From Hysterium pulicare CBS 123377 (taxonomy: Eukaryota; Ascomycota; Dothideomycetes; Hysteriales; Hysteriaceae), in NCBI GenBank assembly GCA_000467715.1, contig AJFK01000206.1, forward strand, positions 88,799-152,798: a DNA stretch of 64,000 nucleotides, read 5' to 3'. Of the stretch, positions 14,165 through 38,577 are shown one piece after another. Made by a program: the position numbers and the translations under genes. The notes under the pieces are model-generated. The model was not told where the DNA came from. It saw only the letters and a program-made list of their open reading frames with translations, and ran no database searches. Each line of letters opens with the position of its first letter. Within the stretch, counting starts at the first letter, position 1.

Positions 14165-14750
14165 GTTCAAGTCTGGGCCGCACAGCAAGCCTGTAACGAC
14201 TCTTCTCGACTGGATGAATACACAATTGAACTTGATGTTATGATTGTAGAGGTGTATCGGATCCTCAGAAGACGTTGGAGTTAAAACAAGACGGATTTCT
14301 CTTAATTCGAGTTAGAGCTGAGAACAAAATCTCATGGGTCCATCTTACCTCGAGGCCGGGAAACCATACGAAATTCCCTTCCTTGTTGATATTGTCGAGA
14401 GGCGAAGACGGGAAGGTCCGAGTTAAAAGTACAATCTCGGCTTAGTATTATTCCGGCCGGGCAGTGTCACACATCAGGCACCCGTAGGCAGCCGCACAAT
14501 AGCGGCCACAAGAACAGTCGGCAAGGAACAATGTCGCACACATATCCTTCATGGCTTCGCACCCGAAATAAGGTGGATAGGTTTCGCTTGGCATTGAGCA
14601 GAGGAGGTCAAAGACCTGGACCTCGGAACCTGATCACGCTTACCGTTAGCTGCCTAGCGCCACCCTTTCCATCTCCACACCTCACATAGGGAACCACACA
14701 TCCATCCTATCTCTTTTAACAGTCCCCTCAAGCCAAAATCAACCACTATA
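14165..14750. other. Intergenic, divergent promoters
   Basis: Lies between the starts of F-box/LRR paralogue A (minus) and the regulator-like gene (plus). I looked for a missing Zn2Cys6 exon for the downstream gene and found no CxxCxxxxxxC pattern in any forward frame. Confidence 0.5.
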
Positions 14751-16414
14751 ATGTTCTCATTTGAGCCCCCATCTAAACGCCGCCGACTCGATGATGGCCC
14801 TCCGCAAGTGCAGCATACGCCCAAGGATGCAGACACTTCCTTCAACTTCATGCTCGACGGCAGCGGCGCAGAATCCGTCTCTCCACTCACGAGCTGGAGT
14901 CTTGATGCCTTTCCGCTTCTGCAGGATCCCGCTTATCTAGCTTCACAGGAAGAGTTTCGGACGTTGCTGTTCTCGACGGCGCAGAGTGCGGCGCCCACGA
15001 GGAGGGCGAGTCCTGTTGGTAGTGCTGAGGTAGGGGATGTGGGCCTTGGTGATGGAGGTGGGGTTAGGATTGGGAGTGGGAGTAGCAGATTGCCTAAGGA
15101 TCACATGAGGCAGGTCCTGGGGAAGGGGAGGAGATTGGAGTATTTCAAAGGGTATGTGGGACAGGTTGCGCCGTGGGTAAGTGAGAGCAGTGGTCACGTG
15201 ACACATGCTCAAAGCTGGAGTGCAAATGATGGGAACTTAGACTAATTCCATGACGTAGCTGGACATGTTCGACTGTCGTCGGGTTTTCGGAATCCAACTA
15301 CCTGCTCATGCTCGAAAATGTCCCCCGCTCCTCTACGCTATTCTTGCGCTGTCCGCGCGACAAGTCGAACAAAAAGAAGGCAAACAGGATTCATTCGACA
15401 GCTTGGAGCTGTACCAGGAGGCAATACGGCTCCTTACACCACTTCTTCAAGTCCGAGATCCAGATGTGATTCCAATATGCGTCATCCTATGTTGCATGGA
15501 GATGATGTCTGCAAGTGAACAAGATTGGCGGAAGCATCTTGAAGGATGCGCGGCCCTCTTCGACTCTTTTGGCGTCAACGGCTTCAGTGATCCATTATTA
15601 CGAGGGGTGTTTTGGTGCTACGCTCGAATGGGTCAGTACTTCGTATCCTATTTTGAAGAACGGAAAGGGTCACTAACCCGATTAAGATCTTTGTGGTGCA
15701 TTGATGTCCGATGGTACACAGAGTACACTGATAGAGCCGTCTAAATGGCTGCCTCTAGGAGCGCCCGAAGATGAGGCGCGGCAGCTATTCCACCACTCGA
15801 ACTCGGCTGATATGCATGCCAACTACGCCGTATATCTTTGTGCTCGAACGTGCGAGCTCATCTCGGATAGGACCAAGTATGTTGAGCTTGGAGAGGAAAA
15901 TGGCTGCACAGCCGATGTTTTCTTGGACAGGTGGAAGAGGCTCTGGGAAGAACTCCAATGCTGGCAGAGCGATCGGCCAAAGGAGCTGGTACCAGTGCAA
16001 ACTATCGAGTCCAAGCCGTTTCCGTACATACTTTTCGTACACTGGGCGGCAATATCTTCGAACCAGCTCCATCACACGTCTTGTATTCTTCTTCTCAACA
16101 TGATTCCAAAGTCAATGGTTGCGGAATTCGGACGTTCAGATCTTACTTTGGCACATGCGCGAAGGATTTGCGGAATCTCCTTGACGAATCCTCATGAAGG
16201 ATGTTTAAACAATGCCATACAGCCGTTGTGGATTGCAGGTCGGTTGTTCAGCCACAGATCTGAGCATGCCTTACTGGTCAAGCTCATAAAAGGTATCGAG
16301 AATTTGACGGGATGGGCAATGAGCTGGCGACTCCGAGACCTCGAGCGTACATGGGGCTACAAGATTCGGAGGGTCCGCGCAGGTGTAGTGGATGAACTGA
16401 CATCCACAGCCTAA
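14751..16414 (+). CDS. Fungal_trans_2-type regulator-like protein without zinc cluster
   Basis: Three exons, 14751-15176, 15259-15631 and 15687-16414, giving 508 aa. The N-terminus FEPPSKRRRLDDGPP has a basic, NLS-like patch, followed by a Ser/Gly-rich linker. From YVGQVAPW|LDMFDCRRVFGIQLP onward the protein matches the middle-homology region of ARCA-like regulators (Fungal_trans_2): PPLLYAILALSARQVEQ, LYQEAIRLLTPLLQ, CVILCCMEMMS, HLEGCAALFDSFG, FWCYARMDLCGAL, SNQLHHTSCILLLNMIP and LTGWAMSWRLRDLERTWGY. It lacks the N-terminal Zn2Cys6 DNA-binding domain. Intron 1 falls between PW and LDM, the same place as in the opposing gene at 16451. It is either a truncated paralogue or a partner that does not bind DNA itself. 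Confidence 0.8.
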
Positions 16415-16450: not shown

Positions 16451-18737
16451 TTATCCGTAACCATAAGCAGCCCAGCTATCTTGTAATGTAGACAACGCAT
16501 CTCTAATGTCGAATGCCGTCAGTATTCTGATACGCTCAAATGCATCGAGCAGCGTCCGTTGTTGAGATTCGTGAGTCATCCGCCGAGCTGCCACAAGTAA
16601 AGATGCAATCAAGCATGGATCCCAGTTCTCGCGGCGGTCATTATTCAGTGCAATGCCGCACAATCTCTCCGCATGCCATAATGGTGAGATGCAGGATGGG
16701 CCGCCTGTAATTCGTAATGTCCTTGGCTTGTGAAGCAGAAGAATAAGCATCGCTGTATGGTACAGTTGATTGCCAGATATACCAGCTCCATTTGTGAAGA
16801 CAATTGTCGGGAAAGCACTGTCATCCGGTGGTTCGAGCTCCACTGCGGGCTGAAATTCTTCCGGGCGCGACTTAAACCACACTTCGAGCTCCCGGAGAAG
16901 CGCACTCCATCTGTCGACTAGATTCCCTCCAGCTGGCGGGGCTGTTGTAGCATAGGCAACATTGACAGCAAAGATACAAAGGAACAGCGCCTTTTGCGCA
17001 TATTGGAACAATCTTTCGGTGATTTCGTTCATCGATTGCTCATGACTAATATCGTGTATTGAGCTTCGTGTGGACTCTTCTCCGAACAAGGCTGCGCTTA
17101 GCTCTGGAATGGACCAAAAGTTAGCTGATACTCAATCGATGTTCGATCTCGCCACGCCCATCATACAATTTACAAAGAACATTTGCTCACCTAGTCTTGC
17201 TACAAGACAGTAAGTCGACGTCTGCAATCGAGACTGACATGAAGATATAGTCAGCCAGATATTATACGGAATGGCTGAACTGATTGCTGAGTGATCTTGC
17301 CACGCCCCTGATATGTCTGGCAAGAATCGTTGCAACATCCGAAGTAACGCTAAGACCGTTCTGATCAATGTGTCTTCCGCCAGCACCTCTTCGGTCTTTG
17401 AAAGCTGCAAGAAATGTTGGGCCTCGGCGCCGTTCGAGCTCCCAGTAGTCAAAGCATCAAGCGAGTCCGCGGAGAGAGCTAGCAATGCTAAGCGCACGGC
17501 TCTAGATTCCATGGCCAATTGTGGTATCTTAATCCCAAATTCCTGCTTCATGTCGTACATATCCAGCTATCATAATGTCAATTAAGAAAACCAGTTTCAG
17601 GGCGAGATGTACTGACCCATGGAGCTATTTCATATCGGTAGTGCCTGAGGAGATGAAGGCCGCGTTCGCCCGAAAGACTTTCTCTTTCTCGGTCTAAATA
17701 CCGGTCATCCGCGTTTGAAATTAAGGAAGAACCAGTCCATCGCATACCACGTGGCGACGTTTCTGATGTATCCTGAACATTCCGCCTTGAGTGAGGGGAC
17801 GCTTGCGTTTCCTCGCCTCTCAGTAGAGGTGGGTCAATGATCGATGAAGCTACATCACTAGTAGTATGGTTCCTATTTCCCAGAGCAAGTAAGCCATCCA
17901 ACGCAGACTCGTAGCGGTCGCCATCCATCATTGAGATACTGCCGTCCGTAGGTTCTATGCGAACGTTTTGCTGGGCATTTTGGACGTCATACGGTGCCCA
18001 TAGGTCCAGATCGAGGATGTTTCTGCGATCTTCGATACCCAAAGTCTCTTCTAAGCTTAGTTCTAGGTGCCCATTCTCAGGCAAAACATCTTGATTGGAG
18101 GGTACTTCTTGGAGAGGATGCATTTGATTGGGTGCTTGGGCCATGTCTTGACCAACATGGCTGCTGTTCGCTACGAAAGTTGTGTCTGATTGAGGAGATG
18201 GAAGTGTCTGTATTTCTGAAGATTCTGCCCCCTCCAAATGCTCCTCTTGGAGCTCATCTCGACTGAGGTCATCGTCATTAGACGATGAGGGAACCTCCGT
18301 ATTCTGCCCGTTGATTACATCCCGACGAGGTGCCTCGTTGATGAACTATGATATTCATGAGTAACTGATGCAAATGGGCATTTAGACACCACCAATCATT
18401 TCGCCAATAGCGATAGCACACAAACTGCAACTTACACTAAGATTGATGTATTGCGGTGTCCGTGCCGACGATGATGGCTCGGATGTAAGAACAGTGTACG
18501 TGTTCCTCTCGAGGAAAGTCAGACCGGAGGCATACTTGCATTCGAAGTCCTTGGAGATGCAATTGCGGCATCTTGGTTTGCTTTCATCGCCTACCGTTGT
18601 CATTGATGAGTCGTCTGATCCTGGAGACTCTGCATGCTCCACTTACACTTCCGCCTTCTAGCACGACACTTGAGACACCCTGTCCTGGCTCGCTTCTTGC
18701 GCGTTACAGGAGGCTCGCCGGTATTCTGCTCAAGCAT
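16451..18737 (-). CDS. Zn2Cys6 transcription factor (Fungal_trans_2, ARCA-like)
   Basis: Five exons on the minus strand: 18737-18647, 18590-18436, 18345-17617, 17566-17191, 17103-16451; all phases agree and give 667 aa. The start MLEQNTGEPPVTRKKRARTG leads into a canonical binuclear cluster with cysteines at about 21, 24, 31, 38, 41 and 48; its codons are split by intron 1, so no single frame shows it. A long acidic, Ser-rich linker follows, then the Fungal_trans_2 region beginning HYRYEIAPW|LDMYDMKQEFGIKIP and ending TAFDIRDALSTLQDSWAAY. Such proteins bind CGG-type sites and control catabolic or metabolite genes. Its stop lies 36 bp from the stop of the related gene at 14751, so the transcripts probably overlap. 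It points away from the sugar genes but is their nearest regulator. Confidence 0.88.
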
Positions 18738-19136
18738 AGATGTGTGGAATCGAGAGATGAATGTCGAGGTCCAGAAGTTGCGCCAAGCTTTCTGCGCTTC
18801 TCGCTGCCAATTCTGACGGGGTTAAGGGTGGAGATGGGCGCCGAGTGCCGAGGTTGTGCCATGGAGTGGTGTGATTGGTGGAGGTTGTAGCACAGAGATT
18901 CTTATTAATATTTTGGACTTCATAATTTGCGAGTCTCAACGTTGTTCTCGAAGATACGTCCAATCATCCGTACTGTCAAGTCCAAATAAGGGCTAGTCAT
19001 TCATGAATGCTTCTATCAGGCGCACAATTCACTGGGTTATGGCTTTGCAATCAATTGGTATCGTAAGATAAATAATGTTTTACTTTTACATTAAAGATAC
19101 TATAGACGGCATTGAACTCTCGCCGGATTCCCAGGC
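18738..19136. other. Intergenic
   Basis: Upstream region of the Zn2Cys6 gene and downstream region of the aldose reductase gene. No gene seen. Confidence 0.5.
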
Positions 19137-20231
19137 CTAAGCGAAGATCCTCAATGGCTTGTGCAGATAGAATCCAGGGTCATTGAATCTTAACCCCTTG
19201 TCCAGAGCACTGATCGCTTCAATCTCTTCTTTCTTTAGCTCAAAGTCCGTAACCTCCAAGTTCTGCTGTAGTCTGTTGACGTTGTTTGATTTCGGGATAA
19301 CTGCAATGTTCCTCTGCGTCGCCCACCTCAACAGCACCTGAGCGGGAGTCTTCCCTACGCGCTCCGCGGCCTTCTTCACGACATCCTGGTCAAATAGAAG
19401 CGTAAGATTCTGCGCTCGCTTTCGGAACGCGGGTGGCAGCTCCAAGAACGATTGTGGGCCAAATGAGGAGTACGCGGTAACGATGATGTTGTTCTCTTGC
19501 GCAAGCTCAACGAGTTCGGGCTGTACTAGGTAAGGATGGTGCTCAATTTGGAGAGATGAGATGGGGTGGCGGGCGTAGCGTTCGATGTCGTAGATGGTCT
19601 GGCCTTGGGCATTCGAGATACCAATGGATTTAGCGATGCCTGAATCGACGACTTCCTCGAGGGTTTGCCAGGTTTCTTGGAGGGGAACCTTGGCCGTGCG
19701 AATCTCCTTTTGCTCGGCATCCAGCCACCATCCCTAAAGTCATGGTTGTAAGACTATGTTCTCCCATATGAAGACAATCATAATGGACTTACTGGGTATC
19801 TCAGCTTCTCTGGCTCAATGTACTCCAGCGCGACGGGGAAGTGAATCAGGTACAGATCGATATAACCCAGTCCCCAAGCCTCGTTCTGAGACTTCGCGAA
19901 TTGCAGTGCATGCTCTCGTTTGTGGTAGTTGTTCCAAAGCTTTGTGGTTACAAAGACGTCTTCACGCTTGACGAGACCTTCGTCAATAGCACGCTTGATA
20001 CCCTGACCGGCCTCTTTTTCATTCTGGTAGTCATACGCTCCATCGAAGAGACGGTAGCCGACTTTGATAGCCTGTGAGCGGCAATTAGGTATACCATCTA
20101 GAATGTTTAGATGACGGGAGACGTACATTATAAACAGTGTCCGCAGCTTGATCGGCAGGAACCTTCCACAGACCGAAGCCTACGAGGGGCATCTTGTGCC
20201 CCGAGGCCAAAGTTACAGTGTCGACGACCAT
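19137..20231 (-). CDS. XYL1: NAD(P)H-dependent aldose (D-xylose) reductase
   Basis: Reduces D-xylose and L-arabinose to the pentitols; cytosolic aldo-keto reductase. Three exons, 20231-20127, 20071-19793, 19733-19137, giving 326 aa, the usual length. The start [20 protein letters not shown] matches the family. The catalytic tetrad is visible: Asp45 and Tyr50 in [16 protein letters not shown], Lys79 in VTTKLW, His112 in [23 protein letters not shown] and the cofactor loop [10 protein letters not shown] near the C-terminus are typical of xylose reductases, as is LRFNDPGFY. Tandem on the same strand is the LAD-like gene, so reductase and polyol dehydrogenase are neighbours. Substrate specificity between xylose and other aldoses is inferred from family resemblance. 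Confidence 0.92.
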
Positions 20232-20936
20232 TTTGATTACAAGAGAGAAACTTGAAGTCAATAAAAGGTGGACAGTCCTTGATGTAGAGGGATGTAATTC
20301 CGGGTCGAAGAGCGTTTGGGTGGCAGCACGAGAAAGAATTTGGACAAGCCAAACAAAAAACAATCACGTCTGTAGAACCGAAAATCCACCTAGCTCAAGC
20401 AAAATCACATCATAGAGGGGCAGCATCATTTCTCCGTGACTTTTGCCTCCCCCCTCAAATTGTGGATATCGTTCCCGATGCGGAAAATTTAGACGCTTCA
20501 CGTTGAGCCTCGGGAGAGCCAAATGCGGTCATTCCCCTTGGTCCTTCTGCAAGACGCAAATTCTAACGAGGAGATAGATGTCGTATTGGAACTAGAAGTC
20601 TGATCTTAGTATTAACAGTTTCATAAAGAGAACTCTTGAGAATTGTCAGTCGTCGCGTCTTTCTTTATACTAAAATATTCGAGATTTCTGTCCTCGCACA
20701 ATCGGCCGAATTAGAGCCGAGAGCGACAAGCAACGCGTTGAAGAGTTCACAAATTCTTTCGCCATCTGTCGTGCTATCAGCATGAAAGATGCATTCATCA
20801 GATAATGGATTTGTCTTTGCATCACTTTGGAATATCGAAGCAGTTTGGAACATCGAAGTATGAGCGGTACTACGCCGTCTCAACCTCGTTCTGGAATGCA
20901 TCGACTCCAAGACTACATTCGAAAATCGATAAATCT
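20232..20936. other. Intergenic, promoter of the aldose reductase gene
   Basis: Between the LAD-like gene's stop and the reductase start, both on the minus strand. Only short frames; no gene supported. I could not identify a regulator site with confidence. Confidence 0.5.
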
Positions 20937-22358
20937 TCATAATGTTGCATCTACATCATCAACTATCTGTACTTTGATGCTACCTTTGGTGATATCCGAG
21001 CACAGTTGAAGAGCCTCGAGTCCTTTCTCTAGCGGAAATTCATGGGAGACGAGCTTCTTCAGATCGAGGATGCCTCCGCTAAGACATTGTATACCAGCAG
21101 GCCAAGTATCGCGGTAGCGGTTGATGAATTTCAGGTCAATCTACATGTTATTTGTCAGCTTACGTCTTTGCAACGCGACTGTCAGATGGCTTACCTCTGC
21201 CAAAGAAATATGCATGAATGGTAGGTTATTCATGATCGCTCTTCCAACCCCAATTACCATGACGGTCCCGCCTCTCCGCACCGCGTATGCAGCAGTACAT
21301 ACACTGCTCTCAACTCCTGTACATTCTAATACTGTCCTTGGTGCAAAATACTCGTCTTCATCGGCATCTACGCTAAACAGCTTACGAATCGCCTTTGCAT
21401 TTCCTTCTGCATCCAAAGTTCGATTGATTTGATACGCGTGACAACTCGGAACGAAGTCTTTCGCAAACGCTAGACGCTGAGGCTCTAGATCCGTAATAAC
21501 GAGCGGATGCGCACCTGAAGCACGTGCTGCAGCCAGCGCAATGAGACCGATTGGGCCTGCACCGCAAATTAAGGCGCCATGCCCGAGGTTCAATCCCGCT
21601 CTTTCAATGCCATGCATGACAACAGACAACGGCTCGAGGAGCGCTCCTTCCGCATAACTGACATTATCAGGAAGCTTATGTAGCCATTTCGCAGGATGTA
21701 TCTTGTATCTTTGTAATGTACCGTGGTATGGATAGACTCCAGCGAATTGAACGTCTTCGCACAGGTTATATCGACCGTCTCTGCAAAGAAAGCAATTGTT
21801 GCAGGGTACGCCAGGCTCGATCGCCACTCTATCACCTAGATCACGATTATTCAGTACTGAGCGATGGAATCAAGATGCGTGAATTCGTAGCGCATACCTG
21901 GCTTCAGATTTGTTACGCCTTCTCCACATCTCAACACAACGCCAGCAGCTTCATGTCCCAGTATACAGTCGCCCTCTACAACGAGCGAACCAATGGAGCC
22001 GGTTTTCCAGAAATGTATGTCAGACCTAGATAGTTATATCAGATACCAAGACTCAGTATACAATGCATAGCTTAACGCACCCGCATATGCCCGTCGTCTT
22101 GATATGTACGAGTGCTTCTCCCCGTTTTGGAGCGTACACTGGAGCGTCGACCTGTTTTATATGGTGATCGGCCGTGACTTGTATAGAAGGATTTGGCAAC
22201 GGGGGTGAGAGTGTGGAGGGAGGGACAGTCTTTGTCTTCAGGAGAGGTGCAGGTTCCAGGCTGTCTGCAGCGCTGTCAAGTAAAGCAGGAGGTGCCATAA
22301 TGGCTGGATTGTGTGAAGTATGGGAGCCTTCGCGAGACGATTCCTTAGATATTGTCAT
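20937..22358 (-). CDS. LAD1: L-arabinitol 4-dehydrogenase-like polyol dehydrogenase
   Basis: Zinc-dependent medium-chain dehydrogenase that oxidises a pentitol or hexitol to a ketose with NAD+. Four exons, 22358-22081, 22025-21898, 21835-21195, 21140-20937, giving 416 aa. Catalytic-zinc region: TTGICG|SDIHFWKTGSIG and ILGHEAAG; structural-zinc cysteines: EPGVPCNNCFLCRDGRYNLC. The cofactor fold is ICGAGPIGLIALAAARASG, with an acidic residue after the second strand (VITDLEP) that fits NAD+. ECTGVESSVCTAAYAVRRGG and VMVIGVG resemble LAD rather than xylitol dehydrogenase. The N-terminus is longer than usual (about 90 residues before GICGSD, against about 45), so a later Met at 22298 may be the true start. 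It is divergent from the transketolase gene across a 524-bp shared promoter. Confidence 0.85.
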
Positions 22359-22882
22359 GCTGTTCCCATGTGCTCTCGGAGAATCTTGATACGGCAAAGG
22401 ATGTCCCGGGACGAACCGCTCGAGCATGCACGTGTAGGCGGCATGGTGGCGTGGCGAGATGGAAGGGCGTTCCTGGATGGTTAGTAGAGGGATGGGTGGA
22501 TGATGGTCGGCAATTGAGGTCCCCCGAACTGGTGTTGGAGATGATGTTCTTGGCGAGTCATTGAACATCCCGAAAAGGAAGGCATAGGCACCACCAGCAT
22601 CGTCAATCGACCCTCTCAACCCTGTGGAACTCCACACTCGCCACACCAAACCTTGAGAGATCCAATTGCCTACAATTACCGTTTCCGGCCAACCGCACGC
22701 CTCTCCCTTAAGCAGTCCATGATCAAACCGTTGAAGGATAACGTGAGGGGCCATTTTCGGGCATCCCGGAAAACAGTACATGTTATAGATTCTGCGGTCT
22801 CTGTGAGTTATGTAGCCAAAGACTGCATTGTATTTGGATTGCTTTTCATCAATTCATCTGCTTATAATCCTAATATCTGACA
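22359..22882. promoter_or_regulatory. Shared divergent promoter, LAD-like / DHAS-type genes
   Basis: 524 bp between the two opposing start codons. No credible gene inside; the minus-strand frame continuing upstream of the LAD start is an open extension. The head-to-head layout suggests joint control; I did not identify specific sites. Confidence 0.5.
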
Positions 22883-25181
22883 ATGGCGCCAGGTCTCACA
22901 CTTCCCAATGGCGTATCTACAGATGCTTCCCCAGCAGTCAAAGGAAAGACGGCACTGAGCGAGATCGTCAAAGAGGATGTATCCTCTTCACAGCCGAGAT
23001 CCTCATCGAAGGAGCACGACATTGTACTCCGAACCTTTCGGTTGCTGATTGCGGATTTGTGTCAGCAATTCAATGGCGGACATCCAGGGTATGAAGTTAT
23101 GAAAACTACGTTTCTAGCATTGTCTCTAATACTTCACAGTGGAGCCATTGGCATGGCAGCAATCGGCGTTGCTTTGTGGAAATACGTGATGCGATATGCA
23201 CCGCATACCCCTAATTACTTTAACCGAGACCGCTTCGTTCTCTCCAATGGCCATACTTGTCTGTTCCAGTACACCTTCCTCCATCTCACGGGTTATAAAG
23301 CTATGACTCTTGATCAGCTCAAGTCATACCATTCCGAACGAGTAGACGCGCTATGCCCAGGACACCCTGAAATCGAGCATGAGGGTATCGAAGTCACGAC
23401 CGGGCCACTTGGACAAGGTGTTGCGAACGCAGTAGGCCTTGCAATTGCCACTAAAAACCTTTCAGCAAACTTCAACAAACCGGGATTCAACGTAGTCAAT
23501 AATCATACTTGGTGTATGATTGGAGATGCATGCCTCCAAGAGGGAGTTGCGCTGGAAGCAATCTCCTTTGCTGGACATTTGAAACTCAACAACCTTACTA
23601 TCATCTACGATAACAACCAAGTTACTTGCGATGGGTCTGTTGATTTGACTAATACTGAAGATGTCGACGCCAAAATGCGGGCTTGCGGCTGGGAGGTCAT
23701 TGATATTGAGGATGGGTGCTTCGATGTCGAAGGAATAATTGCGGCATTAGAACAAGCGCGACAATCTGGAGACCAGCCCACTTTCATTAATGTGAAAACG
23801 GTCATTGGACTTGGAAGCGCGGTAGCTGGAGAAGCTGCTGCTCACGGGGCTGCTTTTGGAGCTAAGGATGTGGGAGAGATGAAACGGGCTTATGGATTTA
23901 ATCCGGACGAGCAGTTTGTGGTCGGTGAAACTGTGAGAGACTTCTTCAAGGATCTACCAGCACGAGGGGAAGAGTTAGTGGTACAATGGAAGACGCTCGT
24001 CGATGACTATGCCCACCAGTATCCTGAGCTAGGAGCAGAATTTCGAGCACGTGTTCGTGGTGAACTGCCATCCAACTGGAAGGAGTTGATTCCGAAGTCA
24101 TTCCCGGAAAAGCCGACAGCAACGCGAGCATCTTCTGGTCTAGTATTCAATCCTATTGCTAAGGATGTCAAATCGTTTATGGTTGGAACCGCGGATCTCT
24201 CTCCCTCGGTCAACATGATCTGGCCCGGCAAGATCGACTTCCAACACGTAAGTAGTCAATCCCAAGCGATTTTCCTCTGCTTACATCGAAACTGTATAGG
24301 CCGATCTCAAGACGACTTGCGGCACTACTGGAAACTACTCTGGGAGATACATACACTATGGTGTTCGTGAGCATGCCATGTGCGCCATATCGAACGGTCT
24401 TGCGGCCTTCTCGCGAAACACCTTTATCCCTGTCACCTCATCCTTCTTCATGTTCTACCTGTACGCCGCTCCCGCCGTACGCATGGGTGCTCTCCAACAG
24501 CTTCAAGTCATTCACGCGGCTACTCACGACTCCATTGGCATGGGAGAAGATGGCCCGACTCACCAGCCCATTGAGCTCGCCAATTTGTACCGAGCAATGC
24601 CGAACCTCCTTTACATCCGACCTGGAGATAGTGAAGAGACGGCTGGTGCTTGGACTGTAGCCATTGAAGCTAAAAACACGCCAACTATCATATCCACTTC
24701 GCGACAGGTTCTCCCTCAACTCACACAAACAAAGCGGGAGGGCGTTGCGAAAGGAGCATACATCCTCCAGGAGGTCGATGACTCTGCCCCCGCAGATATT
24801 ACCATACTAGGTGTCGGGGCCGAACTTTCATTCGCATTGGCTGTTGCTGATGAATTGAAGAAGACAAAGAGCGTACGAGCACGCCTTGTCAGCTTTCCAT
24901 GTCAGCGACTCTTCGAAAGGCAGTCAAAAGAGTATAAACGTGGGGTTTTGCAGCGGCATAAGGGCGTACCTGCTGTGGTGATCGAGCCATATGCACCCAA
25001 TGGATGGGAGAGGTACGCGGATGCTGCAGTGTGCATTACGCGCTTTGGGCACAGTTTGCCAGGCAAGGCTGCTTACAAGTACTTTGGGTTTGACATCGAT
25101 ACGTTGACATCCAAGATTGGTGGATATCTAGAAAGTGTGCGGGCTGATCCTGACTTGCAGCATGAGTTTGTTGAGCTGTAG
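22883..25181 (+). CDS. Transketolase of the dihydroxyacetone synthase type
   Basis: Thiamine-diphosphate enzyme. Three exons, 22883-23088, 23140-24247, 24300-25181, giving 731 aa, longer than ordinary transketolase (about 680) and close to DHA synthases. Landmarks: FNGGHPGGAIGMAAIGVALW, SNGHTCLFQY, TGPLGQGVANAVGLA, and the ThDP site MIGDACLQEGVALEAISFAG with the Ala of DHA synthases where transketolase has GDG. The conserved catalytic Glu is in HYGVREHAMCAISNGLAAF. DHA synthase transfers a C2 unit from xylulose 5-phosphate to formaldehyde, giving glyceraldehyde 3-phosphate and dihydroxyacetone. The C-terminus HEFVEL is not a peroxisomal PTS1, unlike the methylotrophic yeast enzyme, so it is probably cytosolic. 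The downstream neighbour is dihydroxyacetone kinase on the same strand. Confidence 0.87.
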
Positions 25182-25807
25182 CTGATGATCAGGATTGGAT
25201 TTTCTCATAGTTTTCATTTGCTAGTATTATCTACGTTAGAAGGCTTACTGGATTACAATATACCATATATAACATACACCATGTTGAGTTGCACGTATCA
25301 ATTCCTAGTAAGTTATGCGAAAGAAGTTGTACAACCGCTTCTGGAGGATAGCTCGCGAGGAAGAAATCCAAAGTGGCTTATTGGCAAATTCCAAAAGCTG
25401 ATTCTAGGCACTAGCCTCGCTGAAAGTGTCGTACGAGATTCTCTCTCCACTCTAAGAAATGTTTGTGCCGCCGCCGGAGCTCGTGATCATAATGACGAAG
25501 ACGTAGAAGCCTTTCCCAATTCGGAGATGTTAAGCACCACTTCACGATCCGACGAACGACGAATCTCAACGACGACTAACGAAGATTTAGGCTTCCAAAT
25601 TTGATGGGGTATATGGTAAATAGAATGTGAGAGGGCGAGCAACACTTTGCGTTGGCTCTACCTTTATTCCGAGTTGTGAGACAGTGAATCGGCCTCTCCA
25701 AAAGTTCGAGTGAGTACCCACGCATATAAACATTCAAGTAATACTTTCTAAACTCCCTTGCCCAGTTTGAGGTCGATAGGTCTCTTTATAGTAGCCATCT
25801 CACAACA
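25182..25807. other. Intergenic
   Basis: Between the transketolase stop and the kinase start. A 139-codon frame from an ATG at 25185 begins 3 nt after the transketolase stop; it has no family resemblance and is best taken as 3' UTR. Confidence 0.5.
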
Positions 25808-27639
25808 ATGCGAACCAAACACTTCGTGAACGACCCCAGCCACCTCGTTAAAACATCTCTACACTCCCTTTCCATCACCAATCCCTCCGTCCAAATAGAC
25901 CACAACAACAAGATCGTCTATCGACGGGATTCCAAGCAAAGCAACCATGTCCACATCATCTCCGGCGGCGGCTCAGGCCACGAACCGTCATTCGGAGCCT
26001 TCGTTGGAAAAGGCCTCTTGACAGCATCAGTAGCCGGCACGATCTTCGCATCGCCATCTTCGCGCCAGATCCTAGCAGCCATCGAGAGATTCCAATCGGA
26101 GCAAGGCCTTCTCGTCACTGTCATGAATTACACGGGAGACGTCCTGAACTTCGGTGTCGCGGTGGAAAAGGCACGAGCTCGAACTCCTGGCCTCCCGATT
26201 CGAATGCTCGTTGTTGGAGACGATGTTGGAGTGCCTGCGTCGCAGTCGGGGAAGGTTGGGAGGAGAGGTATTGCGGGCACTGTGCTTGTTCATAAGATCA
26301 CCGGTGCTGCCGCGGCTGCTGGCCGCTCCCTTGACGACGTGTTCAAGATTGGTCAGCTCGTCAGCCAGAATCTCGTCAGTATAGGAGCGAGCTTGGATAA
26401 GGTCCATATTCCGGGGCAAAGTGCACATGAGGAAGCTGGCGGGTTAGGGGGTGATGAAATTGAGCTTGGCATGGGTATTCACAATGAACGAGGAAGTGGG
26501 AGGCGGAAGGGGGAGCAAGCGCAACTTCCAGCTCTTATACGAGAGATGTTGGATACGATGCTGCGTGGTCGGAGCATTGAGAAGGCAGTCATGCTGGTGA
26601 ATAATCTCGGTGGAGTGAGCGTTTTGGAACTCGGTGCCGTTGTCTCGGAAGCGACAGCGCAACTGCAAGCGGATTACCTGATCGTTCCCCGCAGGACATA
26701 CGCTGGAACTTTCATGTCTAGTCTAGATGGTGCAGGCTTCTCGATCAGCATTCTTGACCTCTCGAGCACGGGGGAAGAACAAGACATACTCGACCTCCTT
26801 GACGCACCGAGCGAAGCATTGGGATGGAACGCCCCCATTTCAACAAGCACTTGGGAAACTCGATACATGAGTGAGACGGAGAGCAAGACGGTGAATGGGA
26901 TACATACGGTGACAAGCCCAACACTAGAAGCCGCCGCTCAAGTCAAAACAGCTCTGAAACATCTCATACCAGCATTGAATTCCGCCATCGCCGCAGAACC
27001 GGAAGTGACTAAGTTTGATAACATCGTCGGAGACGGAGACTGTGGCACGACAATGAAGCGAGGAGCTGAAGGTAAGTAATCTCCCGCATTCGATCGACCA
27101 TGCGATATACATCTAACCGACACTCCTCAGGCATACTAGAAGCAATTTCCACTCAACCCGCATCATCGATTCCCCACCTCCTGGAAATAATCACTTCGAC
27201 TATCGAAACAACCATGGACGGTACATCCGGCGCTCTCTACTCCATCTTCCTAAACGCACTCACTGGCTTCGCAAAACGGAGAGATGCCGACATAGCCGTG
27301 AACTACGATATCGCATTTTGGACCGCAGCTCTCCAATCTGCATCCTCGACGCTATCTCAGTATACGCCAGCGAAGGTCGGCGATCGCACTCTCATGGATG
27401 CTTTAGTCCCTTTCATCGAGACGTTGGAGAGGACGGCAAAAGTGGGCAAGGCTGCCAGTGCTGCGGTAGATGGTGCGGAGAGAACGAAGGATATGAAGGC
27501 GAGTCTTGGGAGAGCGGTATATGTGGGCGGTGAAAACGAGTGGAGGGGGAAGATTCCTGACCCGGGTGCTTGGGGGTTGGCTTGCTTTTTCAAGGGGTTG
27601 GCTGGAGATATGGGGGAGAATGGGGAGCTAATGGATTGA
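25808..27639 (+). CDS. DAK1: Dihydroxyacetone kinase (DhaK-DhaL fusion)
   Basis: ATP-dependent phosphorylation of dihydroxyacetone (and glyceraldehyde) to the phosphate; cytosolic. Two exons, 25808-27071 and 27131-27639, giving 590 aa, normal for fungal Dak. DhaK domain, about residues 1-340: HIISGGGSGHEPSFGAFVGKG, VMNYTGDVLNFG, VVGDDVGVP, GTVLVHKITGAAAAAG, and ELGMGIHNERG near residue 225, whose His is expected to hold the substrate. DhaL domain, about residues 385-590: IVGDGDCGTTMKRGAEGI (Mg-ATP Asp residues) and MDGTSGALYSIFLNALTGFA. The intron splits the GDGDCG...GAEG block just after the Mg-binding motif. Standing beside a DHA-releasing transketolase, it would complete conversion of DHA to DHAP. 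Confidence 0.94.
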
Positions 27640-28821
27640 GTAGAAGCTATGAATCAGGAGATTTTCCCCAAGCATCGTGTTCATTCTTTCTTCTGAATGA
27701 TGCAGGAGTGTATAACTCCTATCTTCTTGTAGCTAATAGTTACGGTTCTTCGGTAACGTTCGATGTTGGATAGATGAAATGAAGTCTCTTCAAATTGTCC
27801 AAACTTTCACTCAATTATACAAGATGAATGGTGAACTCCGCTAGAAAACTTACGATACATAAACAACGAGTACTGTTGTCGACTGCTTCTGGCTCATCTG
27901 CTGGCAGACCACGTGACTTTATGTTGTAAGTAATAGCCCCGTCCAACTTGAAGATTGCTCTATGTGTCTAACAACTATTACATGTCGCGTTTTCTTGAGT
28001 AGGTGATGCAGACCCCTCTGTTTGTAGAAGTCGAGCAGTCGGAAATCGATGGGATCTCCCCGCTCTACCGTGCGTCGTGACATGGAATTCGAAACACCAC
28101 GTGGATGAACACGGATCAGCAAGAGTGGGGAAGAAGACTAGACGACTGCTATAGTATGTTTATTAACTAGGTGCGTTACGAGTCTTTAGGCATGGTTGGC
28201 GACGAGATGAAAAACTCAGGGTTAGAAAACAGCGCTAAGCCGGGGAAACGTCGGATGAGAGGGCGGTAAAGTCTTCCATATCCGGCAGATGTAGGCTCCT
28301 GAAACTTCAGTGAGCGCCAGCAGAGCCTGGAATATGTGATAGTATCTGATAGCCGCCTTTACCCCGTTCGATTTTGGCGTGATTGTACCTGTAACCCCAA
28401 CTTCAGAACGGCGCCGATCGGGCAACTTTTAGTTGCAAAGCCGTTTTCCACCCACCTGATCTACTTCCTCTACGGCGGCATCGATGAGTTCTTGTGATTT
28501 CCTTTTTCGTAGACTGCCGGATTTGACGATACCTGTTGCATGCATCGTCGTCCATGCCTCACGTTGTCTGGGGATCGTGCCGTTCTCCACACCGGGGACT
28601 CCACCGAATAAACCCAGTCTAGCGACTCGGTGCACGCAAACATGTTCCGGGATATGATTCGGGTCCAAGCATGGGCGAACTTCTCCACATGCTACTTAAA
28701 GTATTGAGCGACCCAGCATTCTGGGACACCTTTCATTTGCCTCTGACATTGCCTGTCGAAACGATATTTTGCCTCTGGTTGGGGATCCACTGGGGATAAA
28801 ACTCCAATACTTCTACATACC
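27640..28821. other. Intergenic, 1.2 kb; possible decayed minus-strand gene
   Basis: Between the kinase gene and the first transporter. Minus-strand frames at 27919-28122, 28222-28425 and 28429-28688 read protein-like stretches (for example EKFAHAWTRIISRNMFACTE) but shift frame and lack a continuous start-to-stop path. I do not recognise them. They may be relics or chance. Confidence 0.3.
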
Positions 28822-30628
28822 ATGGATAGAAGCGCTTCTGTGACGTCGGCTGATGTCCGGACACAAGTCGCATACAAGAACAGATGGAGGAATTTGTTGC
28901 ATAACCCGAAGCTTCTTGTCATTGCATTCTTCGCGTCGTACGTTGCATGCATCTGATTCAACCCTCTCAATTGCATTGCTGATAGCGATTGACTAGTTTC
29001 GGTGGTTTCGAATATGGCTATCAACAAGGTGTGCTGGGCCAATCTCTCGTCATGTACCGCTTCACAAACAACTTCCCTTCCGTCGTCGAATCATCCAGCG
29101 CAACAGGTTGGTTGACCTCTGTTCTGCAACTCGGCGGCATCATCGGCTCGCTCTCAGCCGGTGTCTTCGGCGAGGTCTTCTCGAGAAAGTACACCATGTT
29201 CTCCGCATGCTGCTGGGTCGTTCTCGGTAGCTACCTCTACTGCGGTGCTTCCTACCACAAGCCCCAACTCCTCTATGCCGGCCGCTTCTTCACCGGCTTG
29301 GGCGTCGGCACGTTCTCTGGTGTGGGACCTCTCTACAACGCCGAACTCTCGTCTCCGGAGCTCCGTGGTCTTCTGGTCTCCTTCTATCAATTCGCTACGA
29401 TTCTCGGCATCATGCTCTCCTTCTGGATCGGCTACGGAAGTAATCATCTCGGTGGCACTGGCGTCACGCAGTCCGATCTGGCATGGCGACTCCCTTCCAT
29501 CATTCAAGGCATCCCAGCCGCCATATTGGCCCTGGGAATCTGGTGGCTACCATTTTCTCCACGCTGGTTGGTAAAGAAGGGCCGGGACGAGAAGGCGTTA
29601 CAAACGCTGAGCTATTTGCGGAAACTGCCGATTGAGCACGAACTGATCCAGATCGAGTACAAAGAGATAAAAGCCGAGTGTCTATTCGAAGAACGCGCCT
29701 TCGCAAAAGCCTTCCCGCAACTCGCCGCCAAGGAGCAGCAGAACGTCTGGATCCGCGAGTTCGCGCAATACTACAACATCGTGCGCACGTGGGACAACTT
29801 CAAGCGCGTCTCCACCGCCTGGCTCGTCATGTTCTTCCAGCAATGGTCCGGCATCGACGCCATCATCTACTACGCCTCCAACGTCTTCGTGAGTCTGGGC
29901 TTAACGGGCGGCACGCAAGCTCTACTAGCTACAGGCGTCACGGGAGTCGTTTTCTTCGTCAGCACGCTGCCTGCTATGGCTGTCATCGATAAGGTTGGTC
30001 GCAAACCCATGTTACTAGTCGGCTCGGCCGTCATGTGGGCATCAATGATCATCGCCGGTATCGTGGTCGCCAAATTCCGACATGACTGGGCTGCACACGC
30101 CAATGCGGGCTGGACAGCTGTCGCCTTTATTTGGATCTATGTGGGCGCTTTTGGGGCGACTTGGGGTCCTGCATCCTGGACACTCGTTTCAGAGATATTC
30201 CCTCTCTCCATTCGAGCAAAAGGCGCTTCCATTGGCGCGTCTAGTAACTGGGTACGTGCTTCTCCCTTCGCTACTTTTTTGCTCAATATACTAACGAACC
30301 ACCCCAGGTCAACAACTTCGCCGTCGCCTTCTTCGTGCCCCCCATGTTCGCCGCCTGGGCCTGGGGCACCTACATCTTCTTCTCCGTCTTCCTCGCCGCC
30401 GGCATCGTATGGGTGTACTTCTGCCTCCCCGAGACCAAGGGCGCGACGCTGGAGGAAATGGACCGCGTCTTCAAGAGCAGGACGGGCGAGGCGGATGCGA
30501 TTTTGCTGGCGGAAGCGAGGAGGGATATCGGGCTTTCGATGGTGCTGGAGGCGGATGCGCTTAAGGCTATTGAGCATGGGGAGCAGTTGGGTGAGAAACA
30601 CACGAATCATGTTGAGAGGGCTGTGTAG
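28822..30628 (+). CDS. MFS sugar transporter 1
   Basis: Plasma-membrane sugar porter. Three exons, 28822-28937, 28997-30251, 30308-30628, giving 563 aa. The first exon supplies MDRSASVTS and the start of helix 1, joining as IAFFAS|FGGFEYGYQQGVLGQ. Sugar-porter signatures: GRFFTGLGVGTFSGVGPLYNAELSSPELRG, PFSPRWLVKKGR after helix 6, QQWSGIDAIIYYA in helix 7, DKVGRKPMLLVGSA, EIFPLSIRAKG and PETKGATLEEMDRVF after helix 12. The long cytosolic loop, about residues 235-280, is Glu/Lys-rich. The substrate is not determined by sequence; location next to aldopentose and polyol enzymes suggests a pentose or polyol. Spacing and orientation continue the transketolase-kinase run. Confidence 0.9.
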
Positions 30629-31248
30629 GTGGATGGGATGGGTGGGGGTGAAGAGGTGGGAGTGATGTGGCTGCGGGAATGGGTGGTTTGATAAGGGCGA
30701 TATATTGTGGGTTGAGCGTCCTACCCTAAAGTGAAGGGAACCGCAAGAGAAACCTAAGTAAACACCGTTCAAAGGTGACTCTTTCATAGTATATTGAAAT
30801 CCAACCATAAATAAGAACTTTAATTATAATCACCTGCTTACACGTGCTTGAGCTTTGCCAATCTCTTCTTCGATGCCCCTTCTTTCACCTATCTCGAATT
30901 TCCTCCACACTTGGGGATAATCATAATTGCGGGGTTAGAAAGGACTCTGATTGTGTAAATGGATGGTAACTGCGATATATTGAAGTTTGAAGTGCTGGCG
31001 TGGATGAACTGATGGGAGACCGTAACATTGGTTAAGTGTTACATCACTTTTTGGATGTTCTGTGAGATAGCATGTATCTCATTCATATCCTACTGAAGCT
31101 CTCAAAGCATGATACTTTCATAATGAAATTATGGCTACTCATCGAGACAAGCCAGTTCATGACAATACAATGAATTCCCAATTTGTCCCGCAGAAGTCTT
31201 CCCCAACCCTTACAGATAATCACCAATCGTCCCAACATGTTCGCCAAT
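30629..31248. other. Intergenic, convergent
   Basis: Between the ends of transporter 1 and F-box/LRR paralogue B. No gene seen. Confidence 0.5.
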
Positions 31249-32428
31249 TCAAGCGGATGCGAGGTCATTGGCAACGTTTCTAAGCTTCTCCGCCATATTG
31301 TCGTTTCTCCTGATAACAACCTGCCTCAAAGCGCGACCGGAACACCGAAACTGGATGTCTCTTCCTTTCTCGGAGACACGATAGAGAGTCAGTTCGCGAA
31401 GCTTGCCGGACTGAAGGGTTCGAATCACATCGACCCATGTTTTGGTCCGCTTGCCGCTTAGCTGGACATTCCTTAATGCCACCGTACGTAAATGATCCAT
31501 GTGGCGTTGGAGGAAAGCATTCAGCCCGTTCTCGGTGAATTCAACTCCATCGAGTCTGAGTTTAGTAAGGTTGGGGAAGGACAAGGAATCCATGCCGTTC
31601 AGCATACCAGACGAGTGTCTGAAAGAATCAACGCCGATGCTCAAGTCTTCTAGCAGTGGCATCACGTTAAGAAATTCACGCAGCGCGCGGGTGGTCATTC
31701 GCGGAGCTACATAACTGTTTAGCATGCTGCTAAGAACATCTGTTCGGGTGCGACTCACGAGTTGGCCTGAAGTTAATCCAGATGTGCAAGCGCCGCATTT
31801 GGTCGAGGAAGTTGCCGTTTTTCTCATGTAACTTCACGGCGTTGCGCAGACAAAATACACTAATGCCGATGTTGGATCCATACTGGCCTCCCCGAATTAC
31901 GAAATCCGTGAGCCGATGTTGTGTCAATGCTACAACCTCCAGAATGGCCCCGGTGACGTATCCGGTTGAGTTAGGCGTGTCATAGAAACGTCCGTCCTTG
32001 TGGGCATCAATTGTGACAGACTTGAGCTTCGGAAATCCTTGCACTGCAGCATGCAACTTTGCTGAAGCCCCAGGCATAGGCTTCTGTTTACTGAGATCAG
32101 GACGAGTGTTGATGACCAGTCGTTCAACCGTTGCCGCGTATTTTGGATGGCGAGACAGTCTCACGAGAGACTCGAGAGAGCCGTCATTTATCCAAGGGCC
32201 GTCATGCGTCAGAGAAACGTGACATTGACGAAAAGACACGAGTCGAAGTTTCCAGAAAATTGTTTTGCACGTAAGCATGAAGTTGAGAATGTTTGAGGAG
32301 AGAATCGAATTGTCGGTTTCGACGTGATCAGTTTGGACTTCATCAGATTGGTCATCGTCTTGAAGTAGTTCCTCAATGATCTGCCAAAGAACCTCAACTG
32401 GCGTATCGGGAATCGTAGGACGATCCAT
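31249..32428 (-). CDS. F-box/LRR-like protein, paralogue B
   Basis: Two exons, 32428-31759 and 31706-31249, giving 375 aa. The donor is GTGAGT; the acceptor TAG at 31709-31707 removes an in-frame stop of the unspliced frame and joins at PPRMTTRALREFLNVMPLLEDLSI, exactly the place of the intron in paralogue A. Parts: F-box-like head TIPDTPVEVLWQIIEELL, an acidic insert, NFMLTCKTIFWKL, GSLESLVRLSRHPKYAATVERL, GGQYGSNIGISVFCLRNAVKLHEKNG, then leucine-rich segments FPNLTKLRLDGVEFTENGL and HLRTVALRNVQLSG. It lacks the acidic Ser/Thr tail of paralogue A. It sits between two sugar transporters but has no evident metabolic link. Confidence 0.77.
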
Positions 32429-32968
32429 GTTGAATTGAGCCTTCAGTGTTCACGGCTGAGTAATTCTGCTCCACATCATTAACTTTCATATTGACACTGA
32501 AGCGATAAAACTTACCTGAGATATCTTCAGAACATAACCACAATCCAACTCCCACTCTCCACTGGTGATTGTGAGGGTTAAGAAGTGAGGGTCTGAAAGA
32601 TGTAAAGATAGAAACCAGGCAACAGCAAGTGAAGAAGGATTCATGATTTCGGCATGACGTCGTTCCGTCTCTCGACAGTACGATCAAGCACGGTCGGAGG
32701 TGAAATGTAAAGGAAGGTGAATGTAAGTGAGGGTGGAAAGAAATTAGGGTATGCCATTCTTCCGGTGCTCCGGTGACATGATGGAAATCAGTGTGGAAGA
32801 GATTATTAGGAGGATACTTGAATGAGAGAGATTCTGTAAATGAAGTGGAATTGAATTCATGTATTCGAATTGACGCGTCTCAAACATCCGCGCTAACAGC
32901 CTCAATAAGACTCACCATCTACATCATCAACTAATCATCTCATCCTGCACTCATCCCATCAACCTAAC
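32429..32968. other. Intergenic
   Basis: Upstream of F-box/LRR paralogue B and downstream of transporter 2, both on the minus strand. No gene supported. Confidence 0.5.
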
Positions 32969-35026
32969 CTAAATCTTCCCCCCACCCTCAACATGCGTCA
33001 CACTCCTCTTCCGTTCCTGATTCTGCGCAATCTCCCCCAAACTCATCCCCCTCGCCTTCTCATCAACATCCTGGAAGCTAACCTGCGGCCTAAACTTCTT
33101 ACTCAGCCACGCCTTATCCACGATGCCATACAACTCATCGACTTGTTCGAGCGACAAGCCTTTAGTCTCGTAGATCATGAAGTAGACGAACGCGATACAG
33201 ACGAAGCAGAAGGAACCCCACACGAAGAAGACTTTGGATTGCAGGTTTGCATGATCGGCGTCGACCATGTAGGGGGTGCTGTATGCGATGGCCTATATGG
33301 AATCAGGTCAGCGAGATGCTTGGTTGGATGGTGTGGAGGTGGAGGTTCCAGACAGTAGAGAACGATAGTGGGAAGAGAGGGAAGAAACAAGACTTACCCA
33401 GTTCAAGAGCCAGTTACTAGCTGTGGTCATACTCAGACACTTCGCTCTGACTTTCAAAGGAAACATTTCACCAGTCACGACCCAAGCAACAGGGCCCCAA
33501 CTGCTAGCGAAGAAGAAGATGTAGATACAGACGAAAGCGATAGCAGCGCGCTGTGCAGGTAGCTCGGTCGTACCAGTGACTGTTCCTGTGATCGCAACAA
33601 TGTATTGGCAGACGCACATTCCAATAGCACCGAGGAGTAGCAGATTGCGGCGGCCAAGCTTCTCGACCATGTAGAGGCCGGGGAAGGTGGAGGCGACGTT
33701 AATGGCATTGGTGATGACGCTGATGGTAAAGGGATTTTGAAAACCGGCATTTTTGAAGTATTGGGTTCCGTAGTAGACTATGAATCCGCGAATCAGCTCT
33801 GGCACCTATATGATGAATCGCAAGAGACTTACAGATAAAGTTTACACCTGTAAGCTGTTGCAGAGCTTGCAGTAAGCAGCCAGTCAACAAACGTTTGCCA
33901 ATCGTGCCTTTGAAACAGTCTAAGTACGATGCCTTGCCGAGGCTCATTTCGTAGGTGTGGTTGGCCGACACCTCGCTGAGTTCTTCAACGACAGCTGGGT
34001 GGTCTACGGGCAGACGACGTAGTCTGCCTAACGATTGTGCAGCCTACATGTATCAATTAGCCTCGAGTTACAAGAGCTTTTGTAATTGAGTTGCCTACTT
34101 GCTCATAGCGATCCATCTTGATAAGATAGCGAGGAGTTTCTGGAAGGAAGAGAAGACTGCGAATATCGTTAGATCAAGGCATAGGGTACACGGAATGGAT
34201 TTACTTACCCCATAACAAGAATTAGAGACCAGGCAAACTGCACGGCGACAGGGATACGGTAAGATCCCGAATCATTGCGGTCCTTAGTGGAATTATTCAC
34301 AATGGCAGCCAGCAAAAGACCAATTGTGATAGCAAGCTGGTATGCACCGACAACAGTTCCTCGAATCCATCTTGGAGCCGTTTCGGATTGGTACATGGGA
34401 ACTAGAGACGCGCGTTAGCTACCCCGAATCAGGAGGGAGATGTTCGGGAGAACTCCGGGTAATAGTCCTAGGAGAAATTAAGCAGGCCCACTTACTAAGT
34501 GCCGAAACGAGACCAACACCGAGCCCAGCAAAGAAACGGCCGGCGATGAACAATGGCTGTGCAGTCGAAGCTGTCTGAAGAATAACGCCGAGGTTGAAGA
34601 CGAGACCGGCAGATACCATCAATCCAATACGACGTCCAAGCAAGTCACCCATGGGAGCCGCGAACAGCGCACCAAAGAATGTACCAGCCGAGAGAATGGA
34701 GACGATGAGAGAGTCTTGGGAAGCTGTAATCTCGCCATTGTTTCCAGGCGTTGCGAACTGTGCGAGCCAGTAGGGCATAGCCAATATGCCAGAAATGGTA
34801 CCAGTATCATATCTAAAGATGCGCCGTCAGCTTTGGATATTCGCACAATTGCACAGTTGGGGATACCGACCCATAAAGTACACCACCGAATGCTACAAAG
34901 AGACCGATGAGGATGGCAGGCCTGGACTTGTCAGCTCATCTGTGCATGAAGTTAAAGGTGTCGAATTGCTCACCATGCTGCGCCAGGCACATCATCTGGC
35001 TTCTTCAGGGCGAACTGTCTAGGCAT
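32969..35026 (-). CDS. MFS hexose-type transporter 2
   Basis: Eight exons on the minus strand: 35026-34974, 34921-34871, 34812-34496, 34401-34209, 34156-34099, 34043-33833, 33777-33398, 33292-32969; phases agree, 528 aa. The start is MPRQFALKKPDDVPGAAW. Signatures of fungal monosaccharide transporters: FVAFGGVLYGYDTGTISGIL in helix 1, GDLLGRRIGLM, GRFFAGLGVGLVSALIPMYQ, PETPRYLIKMDRYEQ, QALQQLTGVNFIFYYGTQYF in helix 7, EKLGRRNLLLLGA, TGEMFPLKVRAKCLSM, NWLLNWAIAYSTPYM and YETKGLSLEQVDELYG after helix 12. This is the HXT/MstA-like branch, usually proton-linked uptake of glucose or related sugars. The very fragmented exon structure contrasts with transporter 1, so the two are not recent duplicates. 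Confidence 0.9.
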
Positions 35027-38244: not shown

Positions 38245-38577
38245 TTTGAAAAGAAACTCGAGTCAGAGTAAGGTATTCAGAGTATCAAATTGTGAGAAGG
38301 TAATTCTGATGGTGCATCGAAATTTGGTCCAGAAAATTTCCCAAAGTTCGGCAGTCCCACGTTCACCGCCTTCGGAGAAACTTGCTCCGCTTTCCGAAGG
38401 AAACTCCCCTCCACCAAATTGTCATCACCAACTACTCAATCTGGAAGTGTCATTTACACGAGCGCTCTTCTACATAGCGACCTTTGCATATCCAGCTTCG
38501 CACAGTTGAGTTTAAATACGCCCTGTCTACTCGAGACACTCGAAAAACATAACAACGGCCACGTCAAACCGGCCAGA
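38245..38577. promoter_or_regulatory. Shared divergent promoter, NOP2 / GET5
   Basis: 333 bp between opposing start codons. It must hold both 5' UTRs and core promoters. No specific factor site is claimed. Confidence 0.55.

Follow-up and report, generated by a model that had tools for sequence, protein, structure and literature searches.

The DNA analysed here is a 64-kb window from the fungus Hysterium pulicare CBS 123377 (contig AJFK01000206.1), and all coordinates are positions within it. The segment 16451-35026 contains a candidate cluster of sugar and polyol genes. Every gene that an earlier reading of the sequence (the original prediction) had named there was recovered with Pfam, NCBIfam and spliced models: an aldo-keto reductase (AKR), an L-arabinitol 4-dehydrogenase-like zinc dehydrogenase (LAD-like), a transketolase (TK), a dihydroxyacetone (DHA) kinase (DAK), two sugar porters (ST1 and ST2) and a Zn2Cys6 regulator. 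These seven models, spliced by hand without transcript evidence, contain introns 50-105 bases long and are free of internal stops. Such short introns, together with the Zn2Cys6 and F-box-like genes, suggest a filamentous fungus. The corresponding stop-to-stop open reading frames (ORFs) match the Pfam families Aldo_ket_red, ADH_zinc_N/ADH_N, Transketolase_N, Transket_pyr, the transketolase C-terminal domain, Dak1, Dak2 and, in two cases, Sugar_tr. For the LAD-like gene, the frame is open further upstream of the modelled start, which could harbor the true start.

From left to right, the genes are arranged in the order TF2, Zn2Cys6 regulator, AKR, LAD-like, TK, DAK, ST1, an F-box-like gene and ST2 (Table 1). 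The Zn2Cys6 regulator lies at an end of the block as predicted, although this is the left end, and it is accompanied by a second regulator-like gene, TF2, that had been missed. From TF2 to ST1, seven genes follow one another with no unrelated gene interposed in the models, separated by gaps of 36-1182 bases. The F-box-like gene between ST1 and ST2 makes ST2 less secure as a member of the cluster. Across the genes of the block, the codon GC3 ranges from 0.44 to 0.70. Adjacency of a transketolase and a DHA kinase by chance would be expected for ~0.002 pairs per genome, given copy numbers that were assumed rather than measured (3 transketolases, 4 kinases and 11,000 genes).

The Pfam scan covered 40 of the 54 window ORFs of at least 150 residues plus eight shorter ones, 48 ORFs in total. 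Neither an FGGY kinase nor a short-chain dehydrogenase was reported among them, though small exons or the 14 unscanned ORFs could hide one. This is consistent with the predicted absence of a dedicated xylulokinase, xylitol dehydrogenase and L-xylulose reductase. The part from 49 to 64 kb contains large intron-rich stretches without any Pfam match and is effectively unread.

Table 1. Genes and intergenic region of the cluster, in window coordinates
Feature	Position	Strand	Basis
TF2, regulator-like, 508 aa	14751..16414 (exons 14751-15176, 15259-15631, 15687-16414)	+	Fungal_trans_2, no Zn2Cys6 cluster
Zn2Cys6 regulator, 674 aa, 5 exons	16451..18737	-	Zn_clus and Fungal_trans_2 above cut-off
AKR, xylose-reductase type, 326 aa, 3 exons	19137..20231	-	PDB matches, catalytic residues
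LAD-like zinc dehydrogenase, 396 aa, 4 exons	20937..22298	-	3m6i match, zinc ligands
Intergenic region LAD-like/TK, 584 bases, possible shared promoter	22299..22882	.	Gene coordinates, divergent genes
TK, 731 aa, 3 exons	22883..25181	+	Pfam domains, Tkl1 positions
DAK, ATP-dependent, Dak1+Dak2, 590 aa, 2 exons	25808..27639	+	TIGR02361 above cut-off
ST1, sugar porter, 563 aa, 3 exons	28822..30628	+	TIGR00879 329.5 bits (cut-off 237.8)
F-box-like gene between ST1 and ST2	about 31258-32434	-	Paralogue comparison
ST2, sugar porter, 528 aa, 8 exons	32969..35026	-	TIGR00879 445.3 bits (cut-off 237.8)

Enzymes, transporters and regulators

The enzyme families, the gene order and the conserved catalytic residues can be read directly from the locus. 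The best PDB matches of AKR are aldose reductase 5zci (340.6 bits) and the xylose reductase of C. tenuis 1jez (331.4 bits), the latter with 52% identity over the aligned stretch. Residues Asp45, Tyr50, Lys79, His112, Trp22 and Asn312 are all kept at the mapped positions. AKR has both features of the XyrA/LarA/XyrB-type pentose reductases, namely Trp22 following the LxxGxxxPxxGxG motif and the coenzyme motif IPKS (here IPKSN). A Trp at this position distinguishes pentose reductases from the GldB glycerol dehydrogenases, which possess a Phe instead, together with an LPKS motif (PMC8020424). A glycerol route via GldB is thus ruled out.

The LAD-like enzyme is most similar to L-arabinitol 4-dehydrogenase (PDB 3m6i, 338.6 bits), followed by sorbitol dehydrogenase (PDB 1pl6, 288.7 bits); it shares 53% identity with the L-arabinitol 4-dehydrogenase of N. 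crassa and 43% with human sorbitol dehydrogenase. The zinc ligands Cys72, His97, Glu98 and Glu183 are all present. In A. niger LadA, the near-substrate positions are M70 and Y318, both of which are Phe in XdhA and sorbitol dehydrogenase (Rutten et al., PMC2731777). At the positions aligned to LadA M70 and Y318, the LAD-like enzyme carries Leu87 and Asn336, and the same two residues replace F59 and F297 of sorbitol dehydrogenase, a pattern that fits neither LadA nor the sorbitol/xylitol dehydrogenases. Beside a specificity position, it reads RYRDTW in place of the RYCNTW of L-arabinitol 4-dehydrogenase. The family assignment of the original prediction therefore stands, without the LadA residues at the two specificity positions. 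As both known specificity positions are changed, the sequence argues for a substrate different from that of LadA, without saying which, and for an enzyme that is not a plain LadA. Groups related to LadA, termed LadB and LadC, have been described (PMC2731777).

TK shares 46% identity (292/640) with yeast transketolase and 44% (281/633) with the next-best PDB match 1r9j over the aligned stretches, whereas the latter two share 54% (342/629) with each other. Its TIGR00232 score of 673.9 is just below the cut-off of 682.25. Among 23 mapped positions of yeast Tkl1, TK keeps 19 and differs by I189V, N444M, V446Y and S447L. The last three changes lie between Phe442 and Tyr448, beside the cofactor ring. 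The residues presumed to bind the sugar phosphate are kept, as expected of an enzyme that uses glyceraldehyde 3-phosphate. The segment FFMFYLYAAPA may resemble that of dihydroxyacetone synthase (DHAS). The 49 PDB matches of TK include none named as a DHAS. A pattern search of IMG/VR for relatives of TK gave no match. Neither TK, which ends in VEL, nor DAK carries a PTS1 or PTS2.

DAK combines Dak1 and Dak2 in one chain and retains the covalent-binding histidine (His225), as is characteristic of ATP-dependent DHA kinases. It passes the NCBIfam glycerone kinase model TIGR02361 with 659.6 bits against a cut-off of 574.95. As DAK fits this equivalog, DHA is its expected substrate. Altogether, the family and motif tests bear out a sugar/polyol cluster in which an aldose reductase and a polyol dehydrogenase sit next to a transketolase and a DHA kinase. 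Judged by its sequence, the cluster is real; its dehydrogenase is unusual, and its transketolase is not close to Tkl1.

ST1 and ST2 belong to the sugar porter family and are 30% identical to each other; in the PDB, they match plant sugar transport proteins best, and no substrate is indicated. The Zn2Cys6 regulator matches Zn_clus (31.7 bits, cut-off 21) and Fungal_trans_2 (28.5 bits, cut-off 21), whereas TF2 matches only Fungal_trans_2 (PF11951, 60.9 bits). The two genes are arranged tail to tail with 36 bases between their stops, and their products share 26% identity over 442 aligned columns. No zinc-cluster motif was found in the TF2 protein, nor half a motif in the plus-strand frames of 13201-14760, which cover ~1.5 kb upstream. 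Its position suggests that TF2 belongs to the cluster, where this paralogue without a DNA-binding domain, lying beside an activator, could modulate the Zn2Cys6 regulator.

Six promoters were compared, using the XlnR and AraR consensus sequences. There is one XlnR-type site in the regulator promoter and one in the kinase promoter, but none in the other four, at a window rate of 0.33 per kb; AraR-type sites are absent from all six. The absence of both types from the AKR and LAD-like/TK promoters says little, as only ~0.4 XlnR-type sites would be expected there at the window rate. No shared motif is clear in the six promoters, where none of the longer word classes tested exceeded shuffles. One 9-mer occurs in three of the six, compared to 0.47 expected. 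The pattern CGG-N13-CCG, counted without a shuffle control, also occurs in three (regulator, LAD-like/TK and ST2); the window as a whole contains it 11 times.

Possible routes through the cluster

A transketolase removes C1 and C2 of a 2-ketose, leaving D-glyceraldehyde from D-xylulose, L-glyceraldehyde from L-xylulose, erythrose from fructose and glycolaldehyde from erythrulose. Among the cases considered, in a table of donors and products entered by hand from known structures rather than computed, DHA arises in two ways: either formaldehyde serves as the C2 acceptor, or the branched ketose apulose serves as the donor, of which DHA is the remainder. This carbon bookkeeping rules out a linear pentose that yields DHA, and the original proposal that pentoses are routed through DHA is unsupported as written. 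Since a linear ketopentose leaves glyceraldehyde, such a route would need formaldehyde as the acceptor, apulose as the donor, or DAK as a triokinase acting on D-glyceraldehyde.

On the basis of chemistry and gene content, we tentatively propose that the cluster serves the breakdown of a branched pentose, D-apiose being the likeliest, a reading that we regard as possible rather than probable. It is favored because the four enzymes would each have a role, none would be missing and no xylulokinase would be needed, which no linear-pentose scheme offers, and because apulose alone, among the polyol-derived 2-ketoses considered, leaves DHA upon loss of the C2 unit. The pentose-reductase type of AKR, the unusual residues of the LAD-like enzyme and the sugar-phosphate residues of TK support it; the changed specificity positions and the distance of TK from Tkl1 may add weak support. 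D-apiitol has a single secondary hydroxyl, which adjoins a CH2OH group. We infer each substrate, the sequence of the reactions and that the neighboring regulators exert control. The sugar porters would import D-apiose, which AKR would reduce to D-apiitol with NADPH, and the LAD-like enzyme would oxidize the sole secondary hydroxyl with NAD to yield D-apulose. TK would then transfer C1-C2 of apulose to glyceraldehyde 3-phosphate, giving xylulose 5-phosphate and leaving DHA, which DAK would convert to dihydroxyacetone phosphate (DHAP); triose-phosphate isomerase would regenerate glyceraldehyde 3-phosphate. The net reaction would convert apiose, ATP, NADPH and NAD to xylulose 5-phosphate, with no sugar kinase before cleavage. 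This particular order, in which free DHA is released from apulose and phosphorylated last while the triose phosphate is a recycled carrier, is doubtful.

Among the candidate substrates, apiose is the most economical. Several points weigh against the apiose reading. Of the 48 scanned ORFs, none was reported to encode an apiosidase-type hydrolase, and no description of fungal use of apiose was found in the literature searched. The residue changes of the LAD-like enzyme do not single out apiitol, a clear shared promoter motif is missing, and TK may simply be an ordinary inherited DHAS orthologue. A bacterial operon of transketolase and DHA kinase was considered as a precedent and dropped: at an E-value of 1e-8, no transketolase match was found in the available flanks of 80 bacterial DHA kinase loci, chosen from at least 589 relatives recognized. 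Several of these 80 loci are short, one spanning 3070 bases. Thus, no bacterial model was found for the kinase-last order.

Formaldehyde assimilation of the xylulose monophosphate type is a serious rival, if less likely than apiose. Here, TK would act as a DHAS, with formaldehyde accepting the C2 unit of xylulose 5-phosphate, and DAK would make DHAP. The sugar genes would then supply xylulose 5-phosphate or be chance neighbors, and the C1 compound would naturally come from pectin as methanol. DHAS and DHA kinase form a textbook pairing, and TK is an outlier to yeast Tkl1. According to the published account, orthologues of the synthase occur in many ascomycetes, in Pezizomycotina and in species without alcohol oxidase, and follow the species tree (PMC3866509); the latter fits an ordinary inherited DHAS as well and counts against apiose. 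Models of A. niger likewise include the transketolase TktC as EC 2.2.1.3 (PMC9781776) and a DHAS reaction (PMC8756645). However, TK and DAK lack PTS1 and PTS2, in contrast to the enzyme of O. polymorpha, which PTS1 directs to peroxisomes (PMC6052537). The block contains no methanol oxidase, and yeast alcohol oxidase 1 gives the GMC oxidoreductase to its left 108 bits, compared to 212 bits for the best match. Moreover, the reductase, the dehydrogenase and the sugar porters, four of the seven genes, would have no role. If formaldehyde is nevertheless the acceptor, this filamentous fungus would link C1 assimilation with a sugar module. A further alternative, rather improbable, is that the genes have no common pathway and form two modules, one for sugars or polyols and one of transketolase and kinase, brought together by chance or loose co-regulation. 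The absence of a shared promoter motif, the F-box-like gene that breaks the right part and the spread of GC3 are in line with such neighbors, but the uninterrupted run of seven genes from TF2 to ST1 is not.

Two further schemes retain a linear sugar. In a kinase-free pentose route, which corrects the product of the original proposal and which we consider improbable, xylose or arabinose would be converted via the polyol to D-xylulose, from which TK would free D-glyceraldehyde for phosphorylation by DAK as a triokinase. Unphosphorylated xylulose is a poor transketolase substrate, which counts against this route, and the gain is unclear as fungi own a xylulokinase. AKR does resemble a pentose reductase, L-arabinitol dehydrogenases act on xylitol (PMC2731777), and phosphorylation of D-glyceraldehyde has been assigned to a DHA kinase in the galactose catabolism of A. 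niger (PMC9781776). By contrast, the LAD-like enzyme lacks the specificity residues of LadA, and the lack of AraR-type sites in all six promoters and of XlnR-type sites in those of AKR and LAD-like/TK also speaks against this route, though weakly as few would be expected. A tetritol route is very improbable; here, erythrose or threose would yield erythritol and then erythrulose, DAK would be an erythrulose kinase, and TK would provide the link to the pentose phosphate pathway. In Yarrowia, the clustered erythritol route does include an erythrulose kinase, EYK1, that is DAK-like, along with a regulator and a dehydrogenase, but it also has sugar-phosphate isomerases (PMC5992420), none of which was reported among the window ORFs scanned. 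In addition, DAK scores above the glycerone kinase cut-off of TIGR02361, a model against which EYK1 itself was not scored, and erythrose 4-phosphate is reachable without a transketolase.

Genes flanking the cluster

The GMC oxidoreductase, a single-exon gene at 9360-11012 on the plus strand, is the only one reported in the window. Its best match is formate oxidase (212 bits), followed by other alcohol oxidases (202 bits). However, a His replaces the Arg that differs in the formate oxidase variant chains 5zu3 and 5zu2. Neither a methanol oxidase nor a formate oxidase role was assigned to the gene. The F-box-like gene between ST1 and ST2 has a paralogue at ~12876-14170, also on the minus strand and 36-40% identical to it, so that the pair flanks the TF2-ST1 block; no DNA-level repeat was reported between these two flanks.

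Further to the left, three related short proteins (4330-5070, 5658-6593 and 11638-12321, all on the plus strand) share 27-33% identity and form a local gene family, one member of which has a sub-threshold 2EXR match. An O-methyltransferase domain (Methyltransf_2, 83.5 bits) is encoded at 7550-8416 on the plus strand. The right flank (36121-42660) consists of housekeeping genes for an RsmB/F-type RNA methyltransferase, Get5 and a TCP-1/cpn60 chaperonin. A tandem repeat with an 18-base unit, a 9-base sub-period and about seven copies lies at 46542-46686, inside a long ORF without Pfam match (45368-47746, minus strand).

Comparison with known systems

Methylotrophic yeasts, in their xylulose monophosphate pathway, likewise pair an ATP-dependent DHA kinase with a transketolase that departs from Tkl1. 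The cluster differs in that PTS1 is absent, the GMC oxidoreductase does not have a yeast-type alcohol oxidase as its best match, and the genes sit among sugar and polyol genes. Compared to the fungal pentose catabolic pathway (XyrA/LarA, LadA, LXR, XdhA and XkiA), the cluster has a similar pentose-reductase-type AKR and a LAD-like dehydrogenase, yet the dehydrogenase residues are changed, the later enzymes were not found in the scanned ORFs, and TK and DAK are present instead. Passages of a T. reesei paper (PMC2483294) do not mention a transketolase. The erythritol cluster of Yarrowia lipolytica (EUF1, EYD1, EYK1 and isomerases) likewise combines a regulator, a polyol dehydrogenase and a DAK-family kinase (PMC5992420), whereas the cluster in the window possesses a transketolase and an aldose reductase in place of the isomerases.

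The bacterial apiose pathway offers the closest parallel and a precedent in favor of the apiose reading. In the apiose cluster of Escherichia, whose carriers grow on apiose, two oxidoreductases are hypothesized by the authors to replace an isomerase, followed by a kinase and a transketolase (PMC13001218). The apiose genes of E. coli SE15 (NC_013654, 572041-582988) encode two short-chain dehydrogenases, an ABC transporter, the FGGY kinase AplK and a two-part transketolase, AptA/AptB. TK shares 31% identity with AptA over 243 aligned columns (E 2e-25) and 21% with AptB (E 0.01), whereas DAK has no match to AplK, and the reductase and dehydrogenase of the window are unrelated to the E. coli oxidoreductases. 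We had expected AplK to be a DAK-family enzyme, which is refuted by its FGGY family, and for this reason the kinase step is placed after cleavage in the proposed route. The two systems are alike in having oxidoreductases instead of an isomerase, a kinase, a transketolase that would act on a branched ketose, and their own transport and regulator. The differences tell against the apiose reading: the bacterial pathway has an FGGY apulose kinase before cleavage, so that DHAP leaves, a two-subunit transketolase and short-chain dehydrogenases, whereas the window encodes a DAK-family kinase and a one-chain TK. By analogy, the fungal cluster could work like the bacterial pathway without being a member of it.

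Apiose occurs in rhamnogalacturonan II, a polysaccharide of pectin (PMC5468973), and the role of DHAS in ascomycetes without methanol oxidase has been named an open question for Dekkera bruxellensis (PMC3866509). If the apiose reading is true, these four enzymes would address both fungal use of apiose and the role of DHAS without a methanol oxidase, giving a function to the DHAS-like transketolases of fungi unable to grow on methanol, and the enzyme families would be unlike those of the bacterial pathway at each step except the transketolase.

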